This document shows positions 33,714 to 56,280 of a stretch of 64,000 nucleotides of DNA, in pieces. The position numbers and the translations under genes are program-made. The notes under the pieces are model-generated. The model did not search any database. It had not been told where the DNA came from and saw only the letters and a program-made list of their open reading frames with translations. Source of the DNA: Niebla homalea (Eukaryota; Ascomycota; Lecanoromycetes; Lecanorales; Ramalinaceae); contig JAHGAU010000016.1 of NCBI GenBank assembly GCA_019925105.1, forward strand, positions 620,001-684,000, in the 5' to 3' direction. Each line of letters starts with the position of its first letter. The first letter of the stretch is position 1.

Positions 33714-35315
33714 ATGCACAAAATCCTACTATTGTGCTTCATTCATGGCTTCAAGGTGAGAAAGCAGTGTTCATTCATGTCCACTGGAAGAAGGAGAGCT
33801 TTTAACTCATTCCCCGCAGGGTGGAGATGATACCTTTGCAACCTATCCCGAGGACCTGCGCGCACTTGTCAGCCATGCTCTACCTAATGTCTCTGTCAGG
33901 TCGGTGACCTATCCGAAATTCGAGACTCGAGGGGATCTCAATGAGTGTTGTGGGAGGTTCCGAGAATGGTCAGTGGAATCACCGTTATCAAAATACATCC
34001 AGGCTGTTTTGCCCTTTGTCAAGGGCCTGACCTGTACTGAAGAAGCAAAAACGAATGTAGGCTCCAAAACAAAGTCATCGACCTCGAAGTAGCCGCCTCC
34101 ACCCCCTCCCCCACCATCGACCCTTCAGTCCACACCATCCTCATCGGCCATTCAATGGGTGGCATCGTGGCCGCTGAAACCCTCCTCGCTATAACCTCTG
34201 AATCTCCCATTCCCTCCTCTTCATCCCCGGGGTCTTCCACCCTCGACAGCAGTGCAGACCCTCTCCCGTCAACAGCAGCCCACTCCGACCCCGCCACAGC
34301 GCCGGACAATAACCACTCTAGCTTTATGTTCCCTTACATCTCAGGGATCCTCGCCTTCGACACCCCCTATCTCGGTATCTGCCCCGGGGTGATCGCTCAC
34401 GGGGCAGAGACGCACTACAAAACCGCCAGCACATACTACAACACCCTCAGCGACGTGGCCGGCGTCTTCGGCTGGGGTTCGTCGTCGGCGGCGGCGTCCT
34501 CGAAGAGCGCGCCCGGCTCCCCCAACCCGGCCAAGCATGACGAGAAAATGGCTTCTTCGCAACAAGGAGCCGAGGCCATGACCGCATCCATGACCGCATC
34601 GTCCCAGGACGCGGCCGCGACGCCGACGTGGCAACGGTGGGGGAAATACGCCATGTTCGCCGGTGCGGCTGGCGCTGTTGCCGCGGGCGGGGCGGCCGCC
34701 TACCTCAAGAAAGATCGAATTTCCGAGGGCTGGACGTGGATGGGTAGTCATCTCGAATTCGTCGGGTGTCTCGCCAAGGGGGAGGAGCTGAAGTCGCGGC
34801 TGGATCGCATCATTGCGCTGGCTGAGGAGCGGGGGATCGGGTTCGCAGATCTGGTGACGGTGCTGGGCAAGTCCGCTTCTGCCACCACGGGGAGTGGGAA
34901 GCCGCCCACGCAGCTCGTGGGGGGGTTTGTGGAGATTGGAGGGGATACTAGCCGCGATCGAACGCTTGCTGCGAGCCAGAGGACGTTCTGTACCATCCCC
35001 CGGGGTGAGAAGAGTCGCCGGTATTTCGAGCCATCACGCAATGATGTTGCCAAGGATGAGACGGAAGCACATATGACTATGTTCGAGCGGAAGTCGAATA
35101 GTGGGTATTTTGTCTTGGCGGACAGGGCGAAGTCTTTGGTATCTGAGTGGGTGGAGCCGAGCGAATGGTACCAGAGCAGCGAGCCGTTCCCCAAGGAGGA
35201 AGAAGAGACCTTTGAAGAAGGCCTGATGATGGATGTGGACCTTGGTGAAGGTGAACCCGAAGACACAAAGGCCTGGGCGGGCGAGGAGCCTGTGCTTGTG
35301 GACAGAACGCCTTGA
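33714..35315 (+). CDS. Alpha/beta-hydrolase (serine esterase/lipase-like), three exons
   Basis: Exons 33714-33755, 33820-33968 and 34061-35315 join to 481 residues. The first exon codes only 14 residues (MHKILLLCFIHGFK) and carries the oxyanion-type HGF motif; the next begins GGDDTFATYPEDLR. Exon 3 contains the nucleophile elbow HTILIGHSMGGIVAAETLL, with Ser as the presumed catalytic residue, and ILAFDTPYLGICP. A hydrophobic alanine/glycine stretch (AMFAGAAGAVAAGGAAAYL) near residue 250 may be a membrane segment. The layout matches a widespread fungal family of DUF676-like hydrolases of unknown substrate. The C-terminal third is acidic (KEEEETFEEG) and variable. I cannot name the substrate. 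The repeat island starts immediately downstream. Confidence 0.8.
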
Positions 35316-35762
35316 GATGACGATGATGACGATGGGGCTGCTCTGCCGTCAAGTCACTAAACAGGCTCCTAACACTCAGATTGGCGTTTTACAAGGTGAG
35401 TTGACAAACGAATGATACCCCCAATGACGAGCATAGACAAACCCAAAGTTAACGCATTCTACCCACATGTTCCTTGGTCTCGAATACAGCATGAGTGCAT
35501 TATCATCTATTATGTGTCATGCTTGCGGGAATGCTACACGCCAATTGCCTCCATCCAGACCAAGCACCGCTGTACTACTGCCATCTATGCCAGCCAGCTG
35601 ATACGAGCCGCTGCAAATACGCCAACCAAGTCCCCCCCCATGGGTGACTCTGTCCTAACGTGAGTCTCCGATCTCATCATGCAGTATCTCGCCGTTAAAG
35701 CTTGCGGACTGCCCTAGGAGGCGTTCAAATGACAAGCAAACTGTTCCTGTTAATCTTTCTTC

Positions 35763-37416
35763 CTAGCGTAATGTCAGCTACTGATCATCTTCCATGTACT
35801 TCCAAGATGTGACTCTCCCTGTGCTACTCCCCGATCAAGCCCTAAGAGACCTCCCACTTACAAACACCCTTGGGTCACCTCTACTCCCCTGGCCTCAGGG
35901 AGTGCCATCAGCTGACTCGCAAGCGGCCTCTCCAGCCCGCCCACCTTCGAGGCTCTCCTCCCTCCCAGCCGCCCATAGGAGAGACTCGAAGAAGGGCGGG
36001 TTGAAGAGGCCGGCCTGCAAGTGAGCTGGTGGCACCCCTGAGGTAGGGCGAGTAGGAGCCGGCCCACCCTATCCTCAAATGTCAGTCATCATCGAGCTCA
36101 AAGCACGGGTGGATGGCGTCTTACCTCCCCGACCCCCGGCTCACGCCCTAAGAGACCTCCAACTTACAAACACCTTGGTGGCTCCTCCCTCTACTCACCG
36201 ACGCCTCAAGAGTGGCGGTCAGCCAGTTACAAGCGGCTCTCTTCAACCCAGGCTAGTCTCAAGGCTCTCCACCCTCCCACCCGCCCTAGGAGAGTCTTGA
36301 GGGTAGCGTGGGTTGAGGAGGGTCGCTTGCAACGGACTGACCGTCACAATGAGGACGTGGGTAAGTAGAGGGTGCTGGGGAGATCCCGCCCGCCACCCTA
36401 TCCATGATCTTCAGTACGAAACACCTGGTAGTGGAGATGAATTTGCTCACCACCCCAGCCCCGTGATCAAACCCTAAGAGACCTCCTACTTACAAATATC
36501 TTGGTGGCCCTCCCTCTACTCCCCCGCGCTCCAAGAGTGCCAGCAGCGACTCGCAAACGAGACTGTTCATGCACCCACCCTCGACACTCTCCACCCTCCC
36601 AGCCGCCCATAGGAGAGTCTTGAGGGTGGTGTGGATGATGAATGTCGTTTGCTGGTGGCTCGCTGACACTCTCAAGGCGCGGGGAGGTACAGGGTACTGG
36701 AGGAACCCGCCCGCCACCCTGTGGATGTGTCAGCTTTGAAGCATGGTCAAAATGGAAGTGACTGAAGCTGACGTACCCTCCAGACCTGACGATCAAGCCA
36801 TAAGAGACCTCCCACTTACAAACACCTTGGTGGCCCTCCCTCTTCCACCCACAAACCAAGATTGGGACCAGCCACTTGCAGGCAGCCTCTTCAACCAAGG
36901 CTCCCCACCCTCTCCACCCTCCCCGCCTCCCATAGGAGAGGAGCGGAGCGTAGGTTAAGGAGACTGCTTGCAAGGTGCTGGTGGCAATCTTGGAATGTAG
37001 GCAGTAGAGGGTACTGGAGGCGCCCGCCCGCCACCCTGTTCACTCGTCAGCTATGATGGACGTCAAGTGGAAGTAAGACCGGCTTACCCTCCAGACCCGA
37101 GTCCTGGACGATCTTGTTCACATGTTCACATGTCAGCTTTGATGCGTGTCGAGGTAGAAAGCAGGCTGCTTGCCATTGCAGATCTCGATGCGAGCACTGA
37201 TCGACCCTGTTCACAATGTTGGCAAGTTAGCTCTGATGCAAGTCGACTTAGGAATCAGGCTGCTTACCATCCAACTCCCGACCCAAGCCACCGACTCCAT
37301 CCTGTTTACAAGTTAGCTTGGACATTAGTGAAGGTAGACGACAGACTGCTCACCATGCCAATGCCCGCTCCGAGCCCCGGACGACCCCGTACGCCCTGCG
37401 CCCCAGGCATCACCAT
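35763..37416 (-). other. Tandem exon-intron array on the - strand (putative spliced transcript, function unknown)
   Basis: Eight intron-like segments follow each other in one orientation: 37353-37302, 37267-37207, 37173-37113, 37087-37036, 36776-36719, 36450-36398, 36124-36069 and 35861-35763. Donors are GTGAGC, GTAAGC, GCAAGC, GTAAGC, GTACGT, GTGAGC, GTAAGA and GTAAGT. Most have a branch-like AGCTAAC, AGCTGAC or GACTGAC close to a YAG acceptor. Exon-like parts are 34, 33, 25, then about 259, 268 and 273 bases. An ATG at 37416 opens a Gly/Arg-rich frame (MVMPGAQGVRGRPGLGAGIGM) that runs through the first four junctions in phase and stops in the first long exon. Frames differ between later copies. 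It may be a non-coding RNA gene, a fast-evolving small protein gene, or a relic. No homologue is recognised. Confidence 0.5.
35820..37090. repeat. Long tandem repeat, four copies of about 306-326 bp
   Basis: The best-conserved core (taagagacctcc) occurs at 35843, 36149, 36475 and 36801. Each copy also carries acttacaaa, a ctcccatagg-like block and, in the last three, the string cccgcccgccaccct. Copies are clearly diverged and differ by small indels. To the right the array passes into shorter modules of about 90 bp (37.04-37.36 kb) that share only the intron-like part. Confidence 0.85.
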
Positions 37417-37664
37417 TGCAAGACCAACTCACTGACTGACCGACTCCTGACTCTTGCGCAAATGGGAAGTGAAGGTGAAGGTGCACTGGAAGGGGAGCTG
37501 GAAGGGGAGTGGAGTGAGGTGAGCATGGGAAGGGGAGTGGAGTGCGCAAGGGGAGGTGGAAGGGGGAGGTGTAGGAGGGGGGAGGCGAGTCGAGAGTCGG
37601 TAAGTTAGTGAGCTGTCTTGCAATGATGGTGCCCAAGGTGCAGGGTTAGTAGGAGGCCCGACCT

Positions 37665-37722
37665 AAAGAGAAAAGAAAAGAAAAGAAGAGCAGAAGAGGT
37701 GGGGGAAGAGGGTATTTATGCA
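37665..37722 (-). promoter_or_regulatory. Possible promoter of the - strand array: TATA-like element and CT-rich tract
   Basis: Read on the - strand, cataaatac (37721-37713) is followed about 30 bases later by a long CT tract (opposite gagaaaagaaaagaaaag, about 37667-37690). It then leads to the ATG at 37416. This is the usual arrangement of fungal core promoters, but it is only suggestive. Confidence 0.3.
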
Positions 37723-38791
37723 CTTGGGCAATGCAGCGTGATCCACCGAACATCAACAGAGGCGTTGGTAAAAGATGAGTTTTCCTGGGTATGTGGAGGC
37801 GAGGAAAAGTCAATTGGCCCGATTTGGTGTATCTTGAGGCTTTTTTTCGGAAAAAGGATAAAACATCGTTTGTTGATTGTTTGGTTATATACTGTTCTGC
37901 TATTCGTTCCTGAGAATGACATATATCGAGAGGTTTCCGCCATGCCGCTAACGCCTCGTTCCACATCTAGTAACTTCTATCAAGTTTCAAAGTCTAGCTT
38001 CTCTGCTGCTCTCTCTTCTCGATACATCGTGTATCTTCTCAGTCTGTTGATTAAAGACGTCCTGAGATTCTCTTCCGGCTACTATCAGATACGTTACTAT
38101 CCTGTCCAATCAAATCCTAAGCTCAGCTACAATTATCTGAGAAAGACATCTGCAAAGTGGCATCGCAATTTCTCGTCTACTTCTTTACATTTCTCCGCTC
38201 ATGACCAACATTCAAAGAAGACCATTATGGCGTTACACCTACCCTCTCGCTGGGTACCACACTCTCACATGGGGGATCTAGCCTTTCAGCCACGCTCTGA
38301 GATATGCATAGATCTCCATGACAACACTTCCGGTCTATCTTTCAACTCATCTATACTTCAGAGAGGCCATTGTGGCGTCTCCTCCGTCATTCAAGTCTAA
38401 TAAGATCACTCAGCTGAGGCGCCAACGCCTCCCTCCACACCCAACCAATGCCTAGAATGAGGAGGCCTAGCCCCTCTTACGACAGAGCAGTGTATCGGCG
38501 TTCCCATGTCAACAATCTCTGTATAGTCGTTGGACCTGGATCGTGGCGTCGCCCGTTGAATCTCATTCGCGTTCCTACATCCACATGGCTACCAAAAGTC
38601 AATTGTGAGAGCACTCCCAGCCTCCCCTTTCTACGCCACGAGAACCACGTCAACAATATCCACCAAACTTTGTCCTCTCACCGAGGACTGCGATCCTCAG
38701 TTTTGTCTACTTAAAGGGCCGCTTCCCCCCCCCCTCTTTACTGCTTTCTCTCCACGCGTTGCTTTCCTGATTTTCTGTACCATCTCCTTCT
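37723..38791. other. Spacer between the two divergent arrays
   Basis: About 1 kb of non-repetitive sequence. A 233-codon + strand frame (37699-38400) has no recognisable domain and no flanking exon logic, so I treat it as chance. If both arrays are transcribed, this is their shared upstream region. Confidence 0.4.
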
Positions 38792-39016
38792 GCTAAGAAC
38801 TTCCTTCTGTTGTCTCTTCTCTTCCTCTTTCCTTTAGCTAAGAATTTCCTTCTGTCTTCTCTTCCCTTCCTCTTTCCTTCTGCGAATAATTTTCTTCTGT
38901 TGTCTCTTCTCGTCCTCTTTCCTTCAGCTAAGAATTTCCTTCTGTTGTCTCTTCTTTTCTCCTTTCCTTCAGCTAAGAATTTCTTTCTGTCTTCCCTTCC
39001 CTTCCTCTTTCCTTCC
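38792..39016 (+). repeat. 45-bp minisatellite, five copies
   Basis: The marker gctaag or gcgaat recurs at 38792, 38837, 38882, 38927 and 38972, an exact 45-base period. Being 15 codons long, it keeps a frame open on the + strand (repeats like AKNFLLSSLPFLFPS). The unit is strongly pyrimidine-biased on the + strand. Confidence 0.9.
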
Positions 39017-40690
39017 TGCGGTCATGTCATCTTTGCTTTCTACCTTCTCTCCATCCCACTGCCATGCTCCCAGTGTTCCCCTTCTTCCCTCCCACAGCCA
39101 TGCTCCCAGTGCTCCCTTCCTCCCACTGCCATGCTACCACTTGCGTGCGTGCGTGCGTGCATTCGTTGGCTTCCTCTCGCTTTCCTCTTTCCTTCTCTTT
39201 TACTTCTCTTCCTTCTTTTCTCTTCTATCTCTCTTTTTCTTTCGTTCCTTTTCTCCTTTTCCTTTTCCCCACTGTCATGCTCCCACTGCTTCCCTTCCTC
39301 CCTCCCACAGCCATGCTCCCAGTGCTTCCCTTCCTCCCTCCCACAGCCATGCTCCCCTTCCTCCCTCCCACTGCCATGCTCCCCTTCCTCCCTCCCACAG
39401 CCATGCTCCCAGTGCTCCCTCCCTCCCACTGCCATGCTATCACTTGCGTGCGTGCGTGCGTGCGTGCGTTGGCTTTCTTTCTCTTCCTACCTTGTTTTTC
39501 CTTCCTTTCTTCTCCTTCTTTCCTTTCCTCTCTCCCTTTTCCTTTCTTCCTTCCCTTTCCCCACAGCCATGCTCCCAGTGCTCCCCTTCCTTCCTCCCTC
39601 CCACAGCCATGCTCCCAGTGCTCCCCTTCCTTCCTCCCTCCCACAGCCATGCTCCCAGTGCTTCCCTTCCTCCCTTCCACAGCCATGCTCCCAGTGCTCC
39701 CCTTCCTTCCTCCCTTCCACAGCCATGCTCCCGGTGCTCCCCTTCCTCCCTCCCACTGCCATGCTACCACTTGCGTGCATGCGTGCGTGCGTTGGTTCGT
39801 TTCGCTTCCTTTCTTCTCTCTGTTTTCCTCCTTCCTTCCCTTCCTTTTCTCCACAGCCATGCTCCCAGTGCTCCCCTTCCCTCTCTTCTATAGCCATGGC
39901 CCCTGTGCACTCTCCTACCTGCGTGCGTGCGTGCGTGCGTGGTTGGTCTTTTTCTGTTTTCTTCTTCTTCTTTGCCTTCATCTCCTTCTTTCCTCTTCTC
40001 TCTCTCCTTTCCTCCCTTCCTTCCATTCCCCTTCTCCACAGCCATGCTCCCAGTGCTCCCCTTCCCTCTCTTCCATAGCCATGGCCCCTGTGCACTCTCT
40101 TACCTGCGTGCGTGCATGCGTGCGTGCATGCGTGCGTGATTGGTCCTTTTCTTTTTCCTTCTTTTTCTTTGCCTTCATCTCCCTCTTCCTTTTCCTCTCC
40201 CTCCCTTCCTCCCTTCCTTCCCTTCCCCTTCTCCACAGCCATGCTCCCAGTGCTCCCCTTCCCTCTCTTCCATAGCCATGGCCCCTGTGCACTCTCCTAC
40301 CTGCGTGCGTGCGTGCGTGCGTGGTTGGTCTTTTTTCCTTCTTCTTTTTCTTTGCCTTCATCTCCTTCTTTCCTTTCCTCTCTCACCTTTCCTTCCTTCC
40401 TTTCCCTTTCCCCACAGCCATGCTCCCAGTGCTCCCCTTCCCTCTCTCCCATAGCCATGGCCCAAGTGCACTCTCCTACCTGCGTGCGTGCATGCGTGCC
40501 TGATTGGTCCTTTTCTTTCTTTTCTTCTTTTCCCTCCTTTCCTTTCCTTTCTTCTTTTCCTTCTTTTCCTCTGTCTTTCCTTCCTTCCTCCCTCCCTTCC
40601 TTCCTTCCCTCTTCCCTCTCCCTTCCCTCCCTTCCCTTCCTCCCGCCCTCTTTCTCCCTCCCACAGCCATGCTCCCATTGCTTCCACCCA
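39017..40690. repeat. Nested polypyrimidine minisatellite with (TGCG)n blocks
   Basis: The + strand is almost purely C/T apart from recurring islands. A short unit containing ccacagccatgctcccagtg repeats about every 35-45 bases in places. Blocks ending in runs of tgcg recur at a larger scale, for example ccacag starts at 39851, 40036, 40233 and 40412 (periods 185, 197, 179). All three + frames and at least two - frames stay open over hundreds of bases simply because of composition. No protein is claimed. Confidence 0.9.
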
Positions 40691-41009
40691 TCCCATCCTT
40701 GCCCATCTCTTTCCCCGTCTCTCTTTTCCTCTCCTTTTCCCCTCCCAAACAACTCTCCCAGCTAATCCACATACATACTCACCTATGTACGTATGTACTT
40801 AGCTGCTAACTTGGGCTAATGTATGCGTTGCAGTTGGGATGGGTGGTTATCTGGGGGCGAGTGGGGAATGAGGATGAACGGGCATTCGGGATGGTTGTGG
40901 ATCTGGGACGGAGGGTGATTTGGCATCAATGGGCACTTGGCACGGGGAGGGACACAATCCGCGAGGGGCCGCAAGGAACAAGGGGGGGCAATTGGGCGGG
41001 GGCAGGGGT

Positions 41010-41340
41010 GGCTGCCGGTCAGTACATCCTCCATTCCTTGTGCACTGAGATGGATGCTAACTGAGCCTATGCTTTTCTGGCCATAGGCGGGTGGTTGTGG
41101 CGAAGGGGGGAAGGATGGCTCGGTGGGAGGAATGGCGGAAGGAGCCATGGGGATAGAGGGGGCAGATGTGGCTGCCGGTCAGTACATCCTCCATTCCTTG
41201 TGCACTGAGATGGATGCTAACTTAGCCTATGCTTTTCTGGCCATAGGCGCGGTGGTTGTGGCGAAGGGGGGAAGGATGGCTCGGTGGGAGGAATGGCGGA
41301 AGGAGCCATGGGGATAGAGCGGGGGCAGATGTAGCTGCCG
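41010..41340. repeat. About 160-bp tandem repeat, two near-identical copies
   Basis: The segment gctgccggtcagtacatcc through ggagccatggggatagag is duplicated with very few differences (starts 41011 and 41171). The second copy has one extra base after gcg and two extra before gggggcag. The near identity suggests a recent duplication of one exon plus one intron. Confidence 0.92.
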
Positions 41341-41471
41341 GTCAGTATCTCCCTCTCAAATTCCGATGGTTGGGCGTGGGCTGACTTGTCGTCCTATCGG
41401 GACTTACATGGGATGATTCAATAAACGGAAGGAGTCTTGGGGCGATCAGAATAGGAGGCAAGCAGGCTGTT

Positions 41472-54475: not shown

Positions 54476-56280
54476 TTACTCCCTGCTAACGTCCCTGCCA
54501 AACAGCTTGGCCTTTAGCCAATCCACGCAAACCAAGATACGATTCCTCGTGCTAAAGCACATGCTGAGATACGCGCTCCTCCAGAACAGGTATGTCATGG
54601 TTCCTCCGCTTGCAAAGTTGCCACTCAGCCAGCTAACGTCCGCAACAGCTTTCTCACTGCCGATATAAGCTAGACTGCCCTGATGTGAGTATTCGAACGG
54701 CCCAATCTGCTTGACACGCCGCAATTGCTTTTGGAGGGCTTTGATGGTGTCGAAGACCGCTGTGCGATCGTCGCCCGAGACCTTGGCTTGCTGCTCCGAG
54801 AGACTCGAAAGCTCTTTGTTGATTGTGTCTGTCTTGGCCATCGAGTTGAAGAGGCGGGCAAGGAATGCACCCTCTTGGCTGGCTACCTGGGCGGTTGGTG
54901 CATAATTGGCAATGGCGCAGTCGCCTACAGCCCAGATGTTTTCGGTGCCGTTGACGACGAGGTATTCATTGACTGCCAGCCCTCGACGAGAGTCCTTTTG
55001 TGCTGGGATCTGGGACATTAGGTCTTTGACCACCGGGCGCAAGGCATTGCCCGTCGCCCAGACGAGGAGGCCATAAGGAAGAACCTCGAGCTCTTTCGAG
55101 CCGTCTGGCTTGGTATACTCGGCTTCGATGGTCTTGTCGGTGACTTTCTTGACCATGGTCTTGGTGCGGATGGAGATGGATTCCTCCTTGAATGTGGACT
55201 CGGTGTAGTCGATCAATTGCTTGGAGAACATGGGTAGGACATTGGGCAGAGCTTCAACAAGAGTGACATGGAAGTTGTCAATAATGTCTGGCACCCATTT
55301 CCTCAGGTCCTGCTCAAAGAAATCCTGAAGCTCGCCGGCGAATTCAACCCCGGTAGGACCTCCGCCAACAACCACCATATGCAGCAAACGTTTGCGTTCC
55401 TCCGGTGTTTGATCCTTGAAGCTTGCGGTTTCAACGCAGTCCATGATTCGTTTCCGTATAGCCTGAGCATCGCCTACTTCTTTGAGGAAGCAGGAATGTT
55501 CACGCACGCCTGGGATGCCGAATGTTGCATTCTCAGCGCCAACGCCAACGACGAGCATGTCAAAGGGTACCTCGGTGCTGAAAGTGTCGCCTTTGATTTC
55601 AGAATCATCGTTGATGTACACGACCTTCTTCTCGTAGTCGATCTTAGTGGCCTCGGCTTCATAATATTTGACGGATGCTTCCTTGTGGCGGAGGATGTTA
55701 CGGACCGGCTCCATTATGGATCGATGCTCTATTGTGCCTGTCGTACATGATGGTAACAGTGGGGTGAAAAGGAAGAAATTCCGTGGAGAGATGACGACTA
55801 CGTTATATTGACTGGTGTCCAGCTTCTTGAGAAGGGAGACGGAGCCCCAGCCGGTGCCTGCGGCATTGTCAATGGTCGCATCAATTATCTCTGATAGATC
55901 ATCGTACCTAGAATGACCAAAGTCTTCTTTGTTGGGTCCGGCGCATCCTGTTCTGACGGCGTTCGGAGAAGATAGATATTATATGCTAGATAACCAGCTC
56001 CGCCTATCGCAGACAGATATGTCAACCTCCACGTCCATCTGAAGAAGCTTCTTATTCTTCTTTTAGGCTTTGGCTGTATAGCATCAGCATATGAGCGTTT
56101 GAAGGCTCCTTGGATCGTAGATGGCGGAATTAATGGTTTGGCAGCCGCACGTGCCGGCTGCAGGAAGGTTGATTTGCGGACGCACGAGAGGGAACGGCGG
56201 GATGTAGCATAGGGAGAAGCCTGAGCTGGAGGAGCTGTAGCAAATTTCTTCAATGGCCTGAAAACGCCCCTCGACGCCAT
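54476..56280 (-). CDS. External alternative NADH:ubiquinone oxidoreductase (NDE type), two exons
   Basis: Exons on the - strand are 56280-55908 and 55857-54476, giving 584 residues. The N-terminus is basic and Ser/Arg-rich (MASRGVFRPLKKFATAPP...RRSLSCVRKS), typical of a mitochondrial presequence. A membrane segment follows (WRLTYLSAIGGAGYLAYNIYLL). The FAD-binding fold KKTLVILG is joined across the intron to GTGWGSVSLLKKLDTSQYNVVVISPRNFFLFTPLLPSCTTGT. The NADH-binding fold is MVVVGGGPTGVEFAGEL. Further motifs are GLLVWATGN, NIWAVGDCAI and the C-terminal FWRSAYLSMCFSTRNRILVCVDWLKAKLFGRDVSRE. The membrane segment ahead of the catalytic domain favours the external, inner-membrane-facing-out type (NDE1) over NDI1. 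It feeds cytosolic NADH electrons to ubiquinone without proton pumping. Confidence 0.92.

Follow-up and report, generated by a model that had tools for sequence, protein, structure and literature searches.

On the minus strand of a stretch of the Niebla homalea genome we find an array of exon-intron modules in which each long exon is predicted to fold mostly into a single long hairpin, and the reading that we favour, with a probability of about 0.42, is that of a spliced noncoding tandem multi-hairpin RNA gene, its hairpins most likely being substrates of Dicer. The sequence itself shows the repeated modules with their splice motifs, the co-varying arms of the predicted hairpins, and a paralogous second locus on contig C38 that has homologous promoter and motif; transcription, splicing, dicing and any target are inferred. 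The array lies in a window of 64,000 nt (bases 620001–684000 of contig C16), and the genome searched consists of 50.6 Mb in 52 contigs. The original prediction of an exon-intron module array on one strand is supported by the sequence, but it overlooked the hairpin exons, the co-evolution of their arms, a second donor and the second locus. According to the reading favoured here, the locus would have grown by tandem duplication of an exon-intron module, and a TATA promoter near 37.71 kb would drive its minus-strand transcription, with the short introns spliced out to leave one RNA carrying five serial hairpins. These would be hpRNA-like Dicer substrates whose fast-changing arms would give different small RNAs, while the loop and a 29-nt donor motif would be held constant as the arms change.

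The eight one-strand intron-like segments that had been predicted at 35763–37416 (minus strand) are all found in place, although the eighth is without a good adjacent donor (GTAGCA):

37302–37353, minus strand: intron-like segment 1, GTGAGC..AGCTAAC..CAG
37207–37267, minus strand: intron-like segment 2, GTAAGC..AGCTAAC..CAG
37113–37173, minus strand: intron-like segment 3, GC donor and AAG acceptor
37036–37087, minus strand: intron-like segment 4, GTAAGC..AGCTGAC..CAG
36719–36776, minus strand: intron-like segment 5, GTACGT..AGCTGAC..CAG; 101 nt with the alternative donor GTAAGT
36398–36450, minus strand: intron-like segment 6; 96 nt with the alternative donor
36069–36124, minus strand: intron-like segment 7, GTAAGA..GACTGAC..TAG; 99 nt with the alternative donor
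35763–35827, minus strand: intron-like segment 8, adjacent donor degraded (GTAGCA); 99 nt from the upstream GTAAGT

Segments 1 to 8 measure 52, 61, 61, 52, 58, 53, 56 and 65 nt, and the parts between them 34, 33, 25, 259, 268, 273 and 241 nt. Their adjacent donors are, in order, GTGAGC, GTAAGC, GCAAGC, GTAAGC, GTACGT, GTGAGC, GTAAGA and GTAGCA, the acceptors are CAG (four), TAG (three) and AAG (one), and a branch-like AGCTRAC, GACTGAC or TACTGAA has its A 12–21 nt from the segment end. Donor, branch and acceptor stand in register in seven of the eight segments with the adjacent donor (one of them GC), and in all eight if the upstream GTAAGT serves segment 8. A strict pattern of all three elements recovers six of the eight on the minus strand of the array (6 and 8 are missed) and none on its plus strand, whereas 13 sampled loci of normal GC give a background of 0.42 per 1654 nt; of 2000 Markov shuffles none reached six matches, and elsewhere in the same loci and the rest of the window the pattern peaks at four per 1.65-kb window. 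Because the segments are paralogous copies they do not represent eight independent events, and a fair test has to ask whether the splice motifs have survived divergence better than the remaining sequence. It had been suggested that they persist above the general divergence and that rates inside and outside the motifs should be compared across copies, and the comparison bears this out: over segments 1–7 (I1–I7), the 16 motif columns have a mean identity of 0.73 compared with 0.46 in 36 others (Mann-Whitney p 7e-5, with columns as units and segment 8, whose donor is GTAGCA, left out). Pairwise identity over all eight segments is 0.67 for the donor, 0.78 for the branch (somewhat favoured by choosing the best match in each segment) and 0.77 for the acceptor, against 0.59 for the gap-optimised interior.

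The earlier account of the long exons was incomplete in that it passed over their main feature, the predicted long hairpin into which most of each one folds. The hairpin exons are as follows:

37354–37680, minus strand: exon 1 (5' end inferred), hairpin with arms 37587–37656 and 37385–37453 and a long pyrimidine-rich loop (fold z -5.14; aligned arms)
36777–37035, minus strand: hairpin exon E5, 259 nt (fold z -5.67, MFE -136.2)
36451–36718, minus strand: hairpin exon E6, 268 nt (fold z -4.96)
36125–36397, minus strand: hairpin exon E7, 273 nt (fold z -5.23)
35828–36068, minus strand: hairpin exon E8, 241 nt, the stablest of the four (fold z -6.82, MFE -147.6)
36910–36940, minus strand: conserved hairpin loop of E5 (equivalents at 36587–36617, 36265–36294 and 35953–35983)

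No shuffle was as stable as the native fold for E5–E8 (0 of 200) or exon 1 (0 of 100), and the predicted stems of E5–E8 are about 80 bp long. A long foldback of the kind that marks hpRNAs, tens of base pairs in length, is thus predicted in E5–E8 and exon 1, and the shared promoter suggests the transcript that would hold them. In a hairpin scan of 204 kb of GC-normal sequence (the window, the C38 stretch L021 and the 13 sampled loci), E5–E8 score 78–102 and their sole equal is a MITE-like repeat (score 90) at L039:6831–7004, a lone inverted repeat with 42-nt arms that are 90% complementary. Exon 1 scores just 56 because its loop exceeds the 110-nt reach of the scan. Scores of 70–86 occur in the AT-rich stretches, seven of the 20 sampled, so that in AT-rich sequence the score by itself says little; these 10-kb stretches (L027, L028, L034, L037, L038, L040 and L042; GC 0.20–0.36) have the composition that repeat-induced point mutation, their probable cause, would leave behind. 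The alignment of exon 1 with E5 scores 47, above all 200 shuffles (maximum 41), whereas those with E6–E8 do not exceed all of their shuffles, and no clear kinship links the hairpin of exon 1 with the other four. A consensus fold pairs the exon head GGTGGC with GCCACC just 5' of a GTAAGT donor in E5–E7, with which the hairpin would fill the GTAAGT-ended exon almost exactly; this outer pairing is absent from the single-sequence minimum-energy folds of the same three exons.

The different parts of the hairpin exons have changed to very different extents, in an unusual pattern. Identity across copies is 0.96 in the exon head, 0.93 in the loop with its closing stem and 0.91 in the donor motif, compared with 0.58 and 0.65 in the two arms and 0.47 in the exon tail. 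MicroRNA genes tend to the opposite pattern, with conserved arms and freer loops. The loop pattern, with up to three mismatches, recovers three of the four copies and nothing else in the genome, the E7 copy having been read directly off the sequence. The arms, for all their divergence, change together. A tree of the eight arms groups the 5' and 3' arms of the same hairpin in four of four cases (support 0.79–0.96), and the identity of own pairs (0.744, against a derangement mean of 0.640) ranks first of 24 pairings. Matches in pair cells number 225 of 308, where column shuffling gives 201.8 +/- 4.9 and none of 20,000 shuffles reaches 225, and among private changes ten are identical in both arms, three affect both arms with different letters and 15 affect one arm. 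RNAalifold finds change on both sides in 15 of 76 consensus pairs, with a slightly unfavourable covariation term (+1.56). As judged from the sequence, these comparisons show that pairing of the arms is maintained across copies while the arms diverge.

What maintains it is a separate matter, since template switching during replication can create and maintain stems and yield the same double changes (PMC8794818), so the co-variation shows that pairing is maintained and not why. If the minus-strand RNA is where pairing is kept, mispairs of the G-U type should be commoner than those of the A-C type. They exceed them by 26 to 17 in E5–E8 (p 0.22) and by 27 to 21 in a separate alignment that includes exon 1 (p 0.47); neither excess is significant, which gives no clear sign of selection on the RNA of one strand. 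Folding energy favours the minus strand in four of five hairpins (in exon 1 by 1.2 kcal/mol only), and E7 favours the plus strand.

A second donor, TTT/GTAAGT, lies upstream of the listed one in all four long units, at 43 nt in E5–E7 and 34 nt in E8. It is better conserved than the listed adjacent donors and is identical in five of five copies of the surrounding motif, those of the four long units and of C38. Taken as the intron start, it would give lengths of 101, 96, 99 and 99 nt in the four long units, as against 104 nt at C38, and longer introns of 96–101 nt are therefore a possible alternative in the array. With up to three mismatches allowed, the 29-nt motif GTGTTTGTAAGTNNNNGGTCTCTTANGGC has five matches in the genome, one in each long unit (0, 0, 0 and 3 mismatches) and one at C38:172833–172861; the C38 copy has no mismatch at the 24 fixed letters, for which about 4e-7 would be expected. 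Searches for the exact motif in viral and prokaryote collections, as distinct from fungal ones, gave 0 matches. The copies in the array are:

36798–36822, minus strand: conserved motif TTTGTAAGTNGGAGGTCTCTTANGG, E5 copy
36472–36496, minus strand: conserved motif, E6 copy
36146–36170, minus strand: conserved motif, E7 copy
35840–35864, minus strand: conserved motif, E8 copy

The C38 locus resembles the array in more than the motif. On the same strand, about 1.4 kb upstream of the C38 motif, is a TATA-box stretch that aligns with its counterpart upstream of the array:

37670–37750, minus strand: putative core promoter, TATA-like CATAAATACC (37711–37720) followed by a CT-rich start region (alignment with C38)

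The 70 nt at 37676–37745 score 58 against the equivalent place upstream of the C38 motif, a stretch chosen by eye ahead of scoring; the controls stay below this, with a best of 41 among 79,400 windows from 20 other sampled loci and maxima of 38 for the rest of L021 and 37 for the rest of the window, and none of 2000 shuffles reached the alignment score. When the promoter of the array was used as a DNA query against the whole genome, it recovered only itself, so the tool failed to pick up the C38 copy. The C38 motif is followed by AGCTGAC and TTGCAG at a distance similar to that in the array; no second donor was seen there by eye, and a hairpin of the array type is absent. Downstream of the C38 TATA box (L021:5000–6200), degenerate CTTCTTCATACTTC-like repeats rich in pyrimidines extend over about 1.2 kb; the loop of exon 1 in the array is also pyrimidine-rich, and shorter. 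The promoter, motif order and strand that the two loci have in common argue for real minus-strand transcription at both, and the likeness to C38 supports a minus-strand transcription unit at the array. Since the C38 paralogue has no hairpin, the motif can exist independently of one, and by this comparison it is likely to be the ancestral working part.

The array is flanked by a plus-strand open frame that ends at 35315 and by CT-rich minisatellites (38.8–40.7 kb). The latter form a dense block at 38785–40662, with a 197-nt unit present about 3.9 times and a 40-nt unit five times, which begins upstream of the promoter of the array, at a distance of about 1 kb; a 160-nt tandem duplication with 95% matches lies at 40997–41347. 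Farther along the window, an NADH dehydrogenase frame (54476–55978) has a top-scoring match of 92% over 100%, the highest identity among the 120 matches listed being to Ramalina farinacea (97% over 82%), and many of its other top named matches are lichen fungi. By this one protein the fungus is probably a Ramalina or a near relative.

No Rfam family reaches its gathering score in the window; at a low threshold, 35500–37900 gives 21 matches on both strands, mostly to miRNA precursor families and all below gathering, and the C38 stretch gives three weak snoRNA matches, none at gathering. A host gene for C/D snoRNAs was considered and rejected, as a C box and a D box separated by 40 nt or more are absent from all eight short introns and, among the five long introns, present only in that of C38, with a mismatched C box. 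A telomerase-like RNA was likewise set aside, there being a single CTAACCCT at 37649 in exon 1 and a single TTAGGGT at 36477, and no match to any of the longer template-like words or the Sm-like words tried. A mobile inverted-repeat element was rejected because genome searches gave no dispersed copies: the whole array and its exons, used as queries, found the array itself only. At E<=10 the arms match nothing in the genome beyond the array, with one candidate region scored per search and with 21-nt sites bound to escape.

As for coding potential, no open frame passes through all units. Five of the seven inner exons are not multiples of three with the listed donors; with GTAAGT donors the hairpin exons become 216, 225, 230 and 207 nt, three of the four multiples of three. 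Whichever donor is used, stops interrupt all three frames of E7, and each frame of the three splice forms tested holds 11 to 21 stops. The listed donors give a longest spliced open stretch of 211 aa (exon 1 to E6), GTAAGT in every unit gives 137 aa and the best of 16 donor mixes 247 aa, while the longest open stretches of 1000 Markov sequences have a 95th percentile of 206 aa and a maximum of 319. The values of 211 and 247 aa are thus at or slightly above that percentile, which disfavours coding. There is also an unspliced open frame of 190 aa, for which a comparison with 170 candidates gave no relative at E<=1.

The genome has candidate genes for the machinery that the favoured reading calls for. 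A Piwi domain, indicating Argonaute, is found at two places, two open frames carry twin RNase III domains (Dicer-like), and matches to RNA-dependent RNA polymerase (RdRP) lie on four contigs, one of them decayed; the fragment at C27:854454–854999, with nine stop codons, is probably a decayed copy. Given Argonaute, Dicer-like and RdRP genes, dicing would be the expected fate of long hairpins. A more specific form of the idea, which we consider rather doubtful, is a fungal array of silencing cassettes, each a hairpin exon with its intron, in which the loop and donor motif would stay fixed while the paired arms diversify; splicing would join different long hairpins in a single RNA, and dicing of this RNA would give a changing set of small RNAs.

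The main rival to RNA selection as the source of the co-varying arms is correction by template switching. On this explanation, somewhat unlikely yet the nearest competitor, the hairpins would be DNA palindromes kept matched during replication within a transcribed but otherwise functionless array, and co-variation would be an effect of mutation. Template switching has the capacity to make and maintain stems and to produce double changes (PMC8794818), and both the non-significant G-U excess and the lack of an arm target (at E<=10, where 21-nt sites would escape) agree with it. It leaves unexplained, however, why the loop, exon head and motif stand at 91–96% when the arms stand at 58–65%, why motif and promoter are common to C38, and why splice motifs are retained.

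The fixed motif might instead be the point of the locus. The array would then specify a structured lncRNA that is spliced and that works through the 29-nt motif, the GTAAGT donor in it and the downstream intron, as a host or regulatory RNA or a 3' end made by the spliceosome, with the hairpins as passengers. Apart from the promoter and a branch-acceptor, nothing but the motif was found in common with the hairpin-less C38 locus, the GTAAGT of the motif is kept in five of five copies, and Neurospora crassa has spliced noncoding snoRNA host genes (described in PMC2780460); but C/D box pairs are lacking in all eight short introns and present in one of five long ones, with the mismatched C box, no Rfam family reaches gathering in the window, and passengers would have no need of co-varying arms. 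We regard this explanation as distinctly improbable. Least probable is that the array is a repeat gene for a protein, decayed or unusual in kind, or that its splice-like motifs arose by chance in a tandem repeat rich in GC. The 190-aa unspliced frame, the spliced stretch of 211 aa (247 aa in one donor mix) and the three of four hairpin exons that are multiples of three with GTAAGT donors could be cited for a coding origin, but none of 170 candidates is related to the 190-aa frame at E<=1, stops interrupt every frame of E7, and the longest open stretches of Markov sequences have their 95th percentile at 206 aa and a maximum of 319, while chance motifs must account for six matches to the intron pattern where 0.42 are expected.

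For the favoured reading of a multi-hairpin RNA gene, the closest working analogue is the Drosophila tandem hpRNA cluster, a class of which we do not claim the array to be a member. Clusters such as hp-CG4068 similarly consist of tandem hairpins on one transcript with fast change in copy number, and most of the novel hpRNA loci of D. simulans have spliced primary RNAs (PMC10317233). In Drosophila, siRNAs and Dicer dependence have been demonstrated, whereas for the array they would be predictions; it also differs in giving each long hairpin its own exon, in having loops more conserved than arms and in that the searches with its arms found no target. The fungal mi/milRNA hairpin loci resemble it as hairpins of a fungus whose genome carries RNAi genes. 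In the main text of an eLife survey of 41 species and 1727 reported fungal loci, the words 'tandem' and 'cluster' appear 0 times, hairpins lying wholly inside introns are called very rare, and natural induction of RNAi by long hairpin RNAs in organisms is said still to need exploration (PMC9757828). The array differs from these loci in its five hairpins, four of them with long-exon stems of about 80 bp. It shares with introner-like elements the presence of several related introns in one fungal genome; those, however, are invasive introns multiplied over genes (PMC4457414), whereas the array has arisen from in-place duplication of entire exon-intron units, and queries with the array and its exons gave no dispersed copies. 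The N. crassa snoRNA host genes (UHG-like) are comparable as spliced noncoding host transcripts (PMC2780460), but the short introns of the array have no C/D box pairs and its structure sits in the exons. Among the matches listed in a search of the open-licence literature, no array of this kind is described.

If the array is transcribed and diced, it would be a natural source of long hairpin RNA in a fungus, and one that keeps its pairing while its sequence diversifies. Its four paralogous stems, lying side by side, make it a clean test case for compensatory evolution versus template switching.
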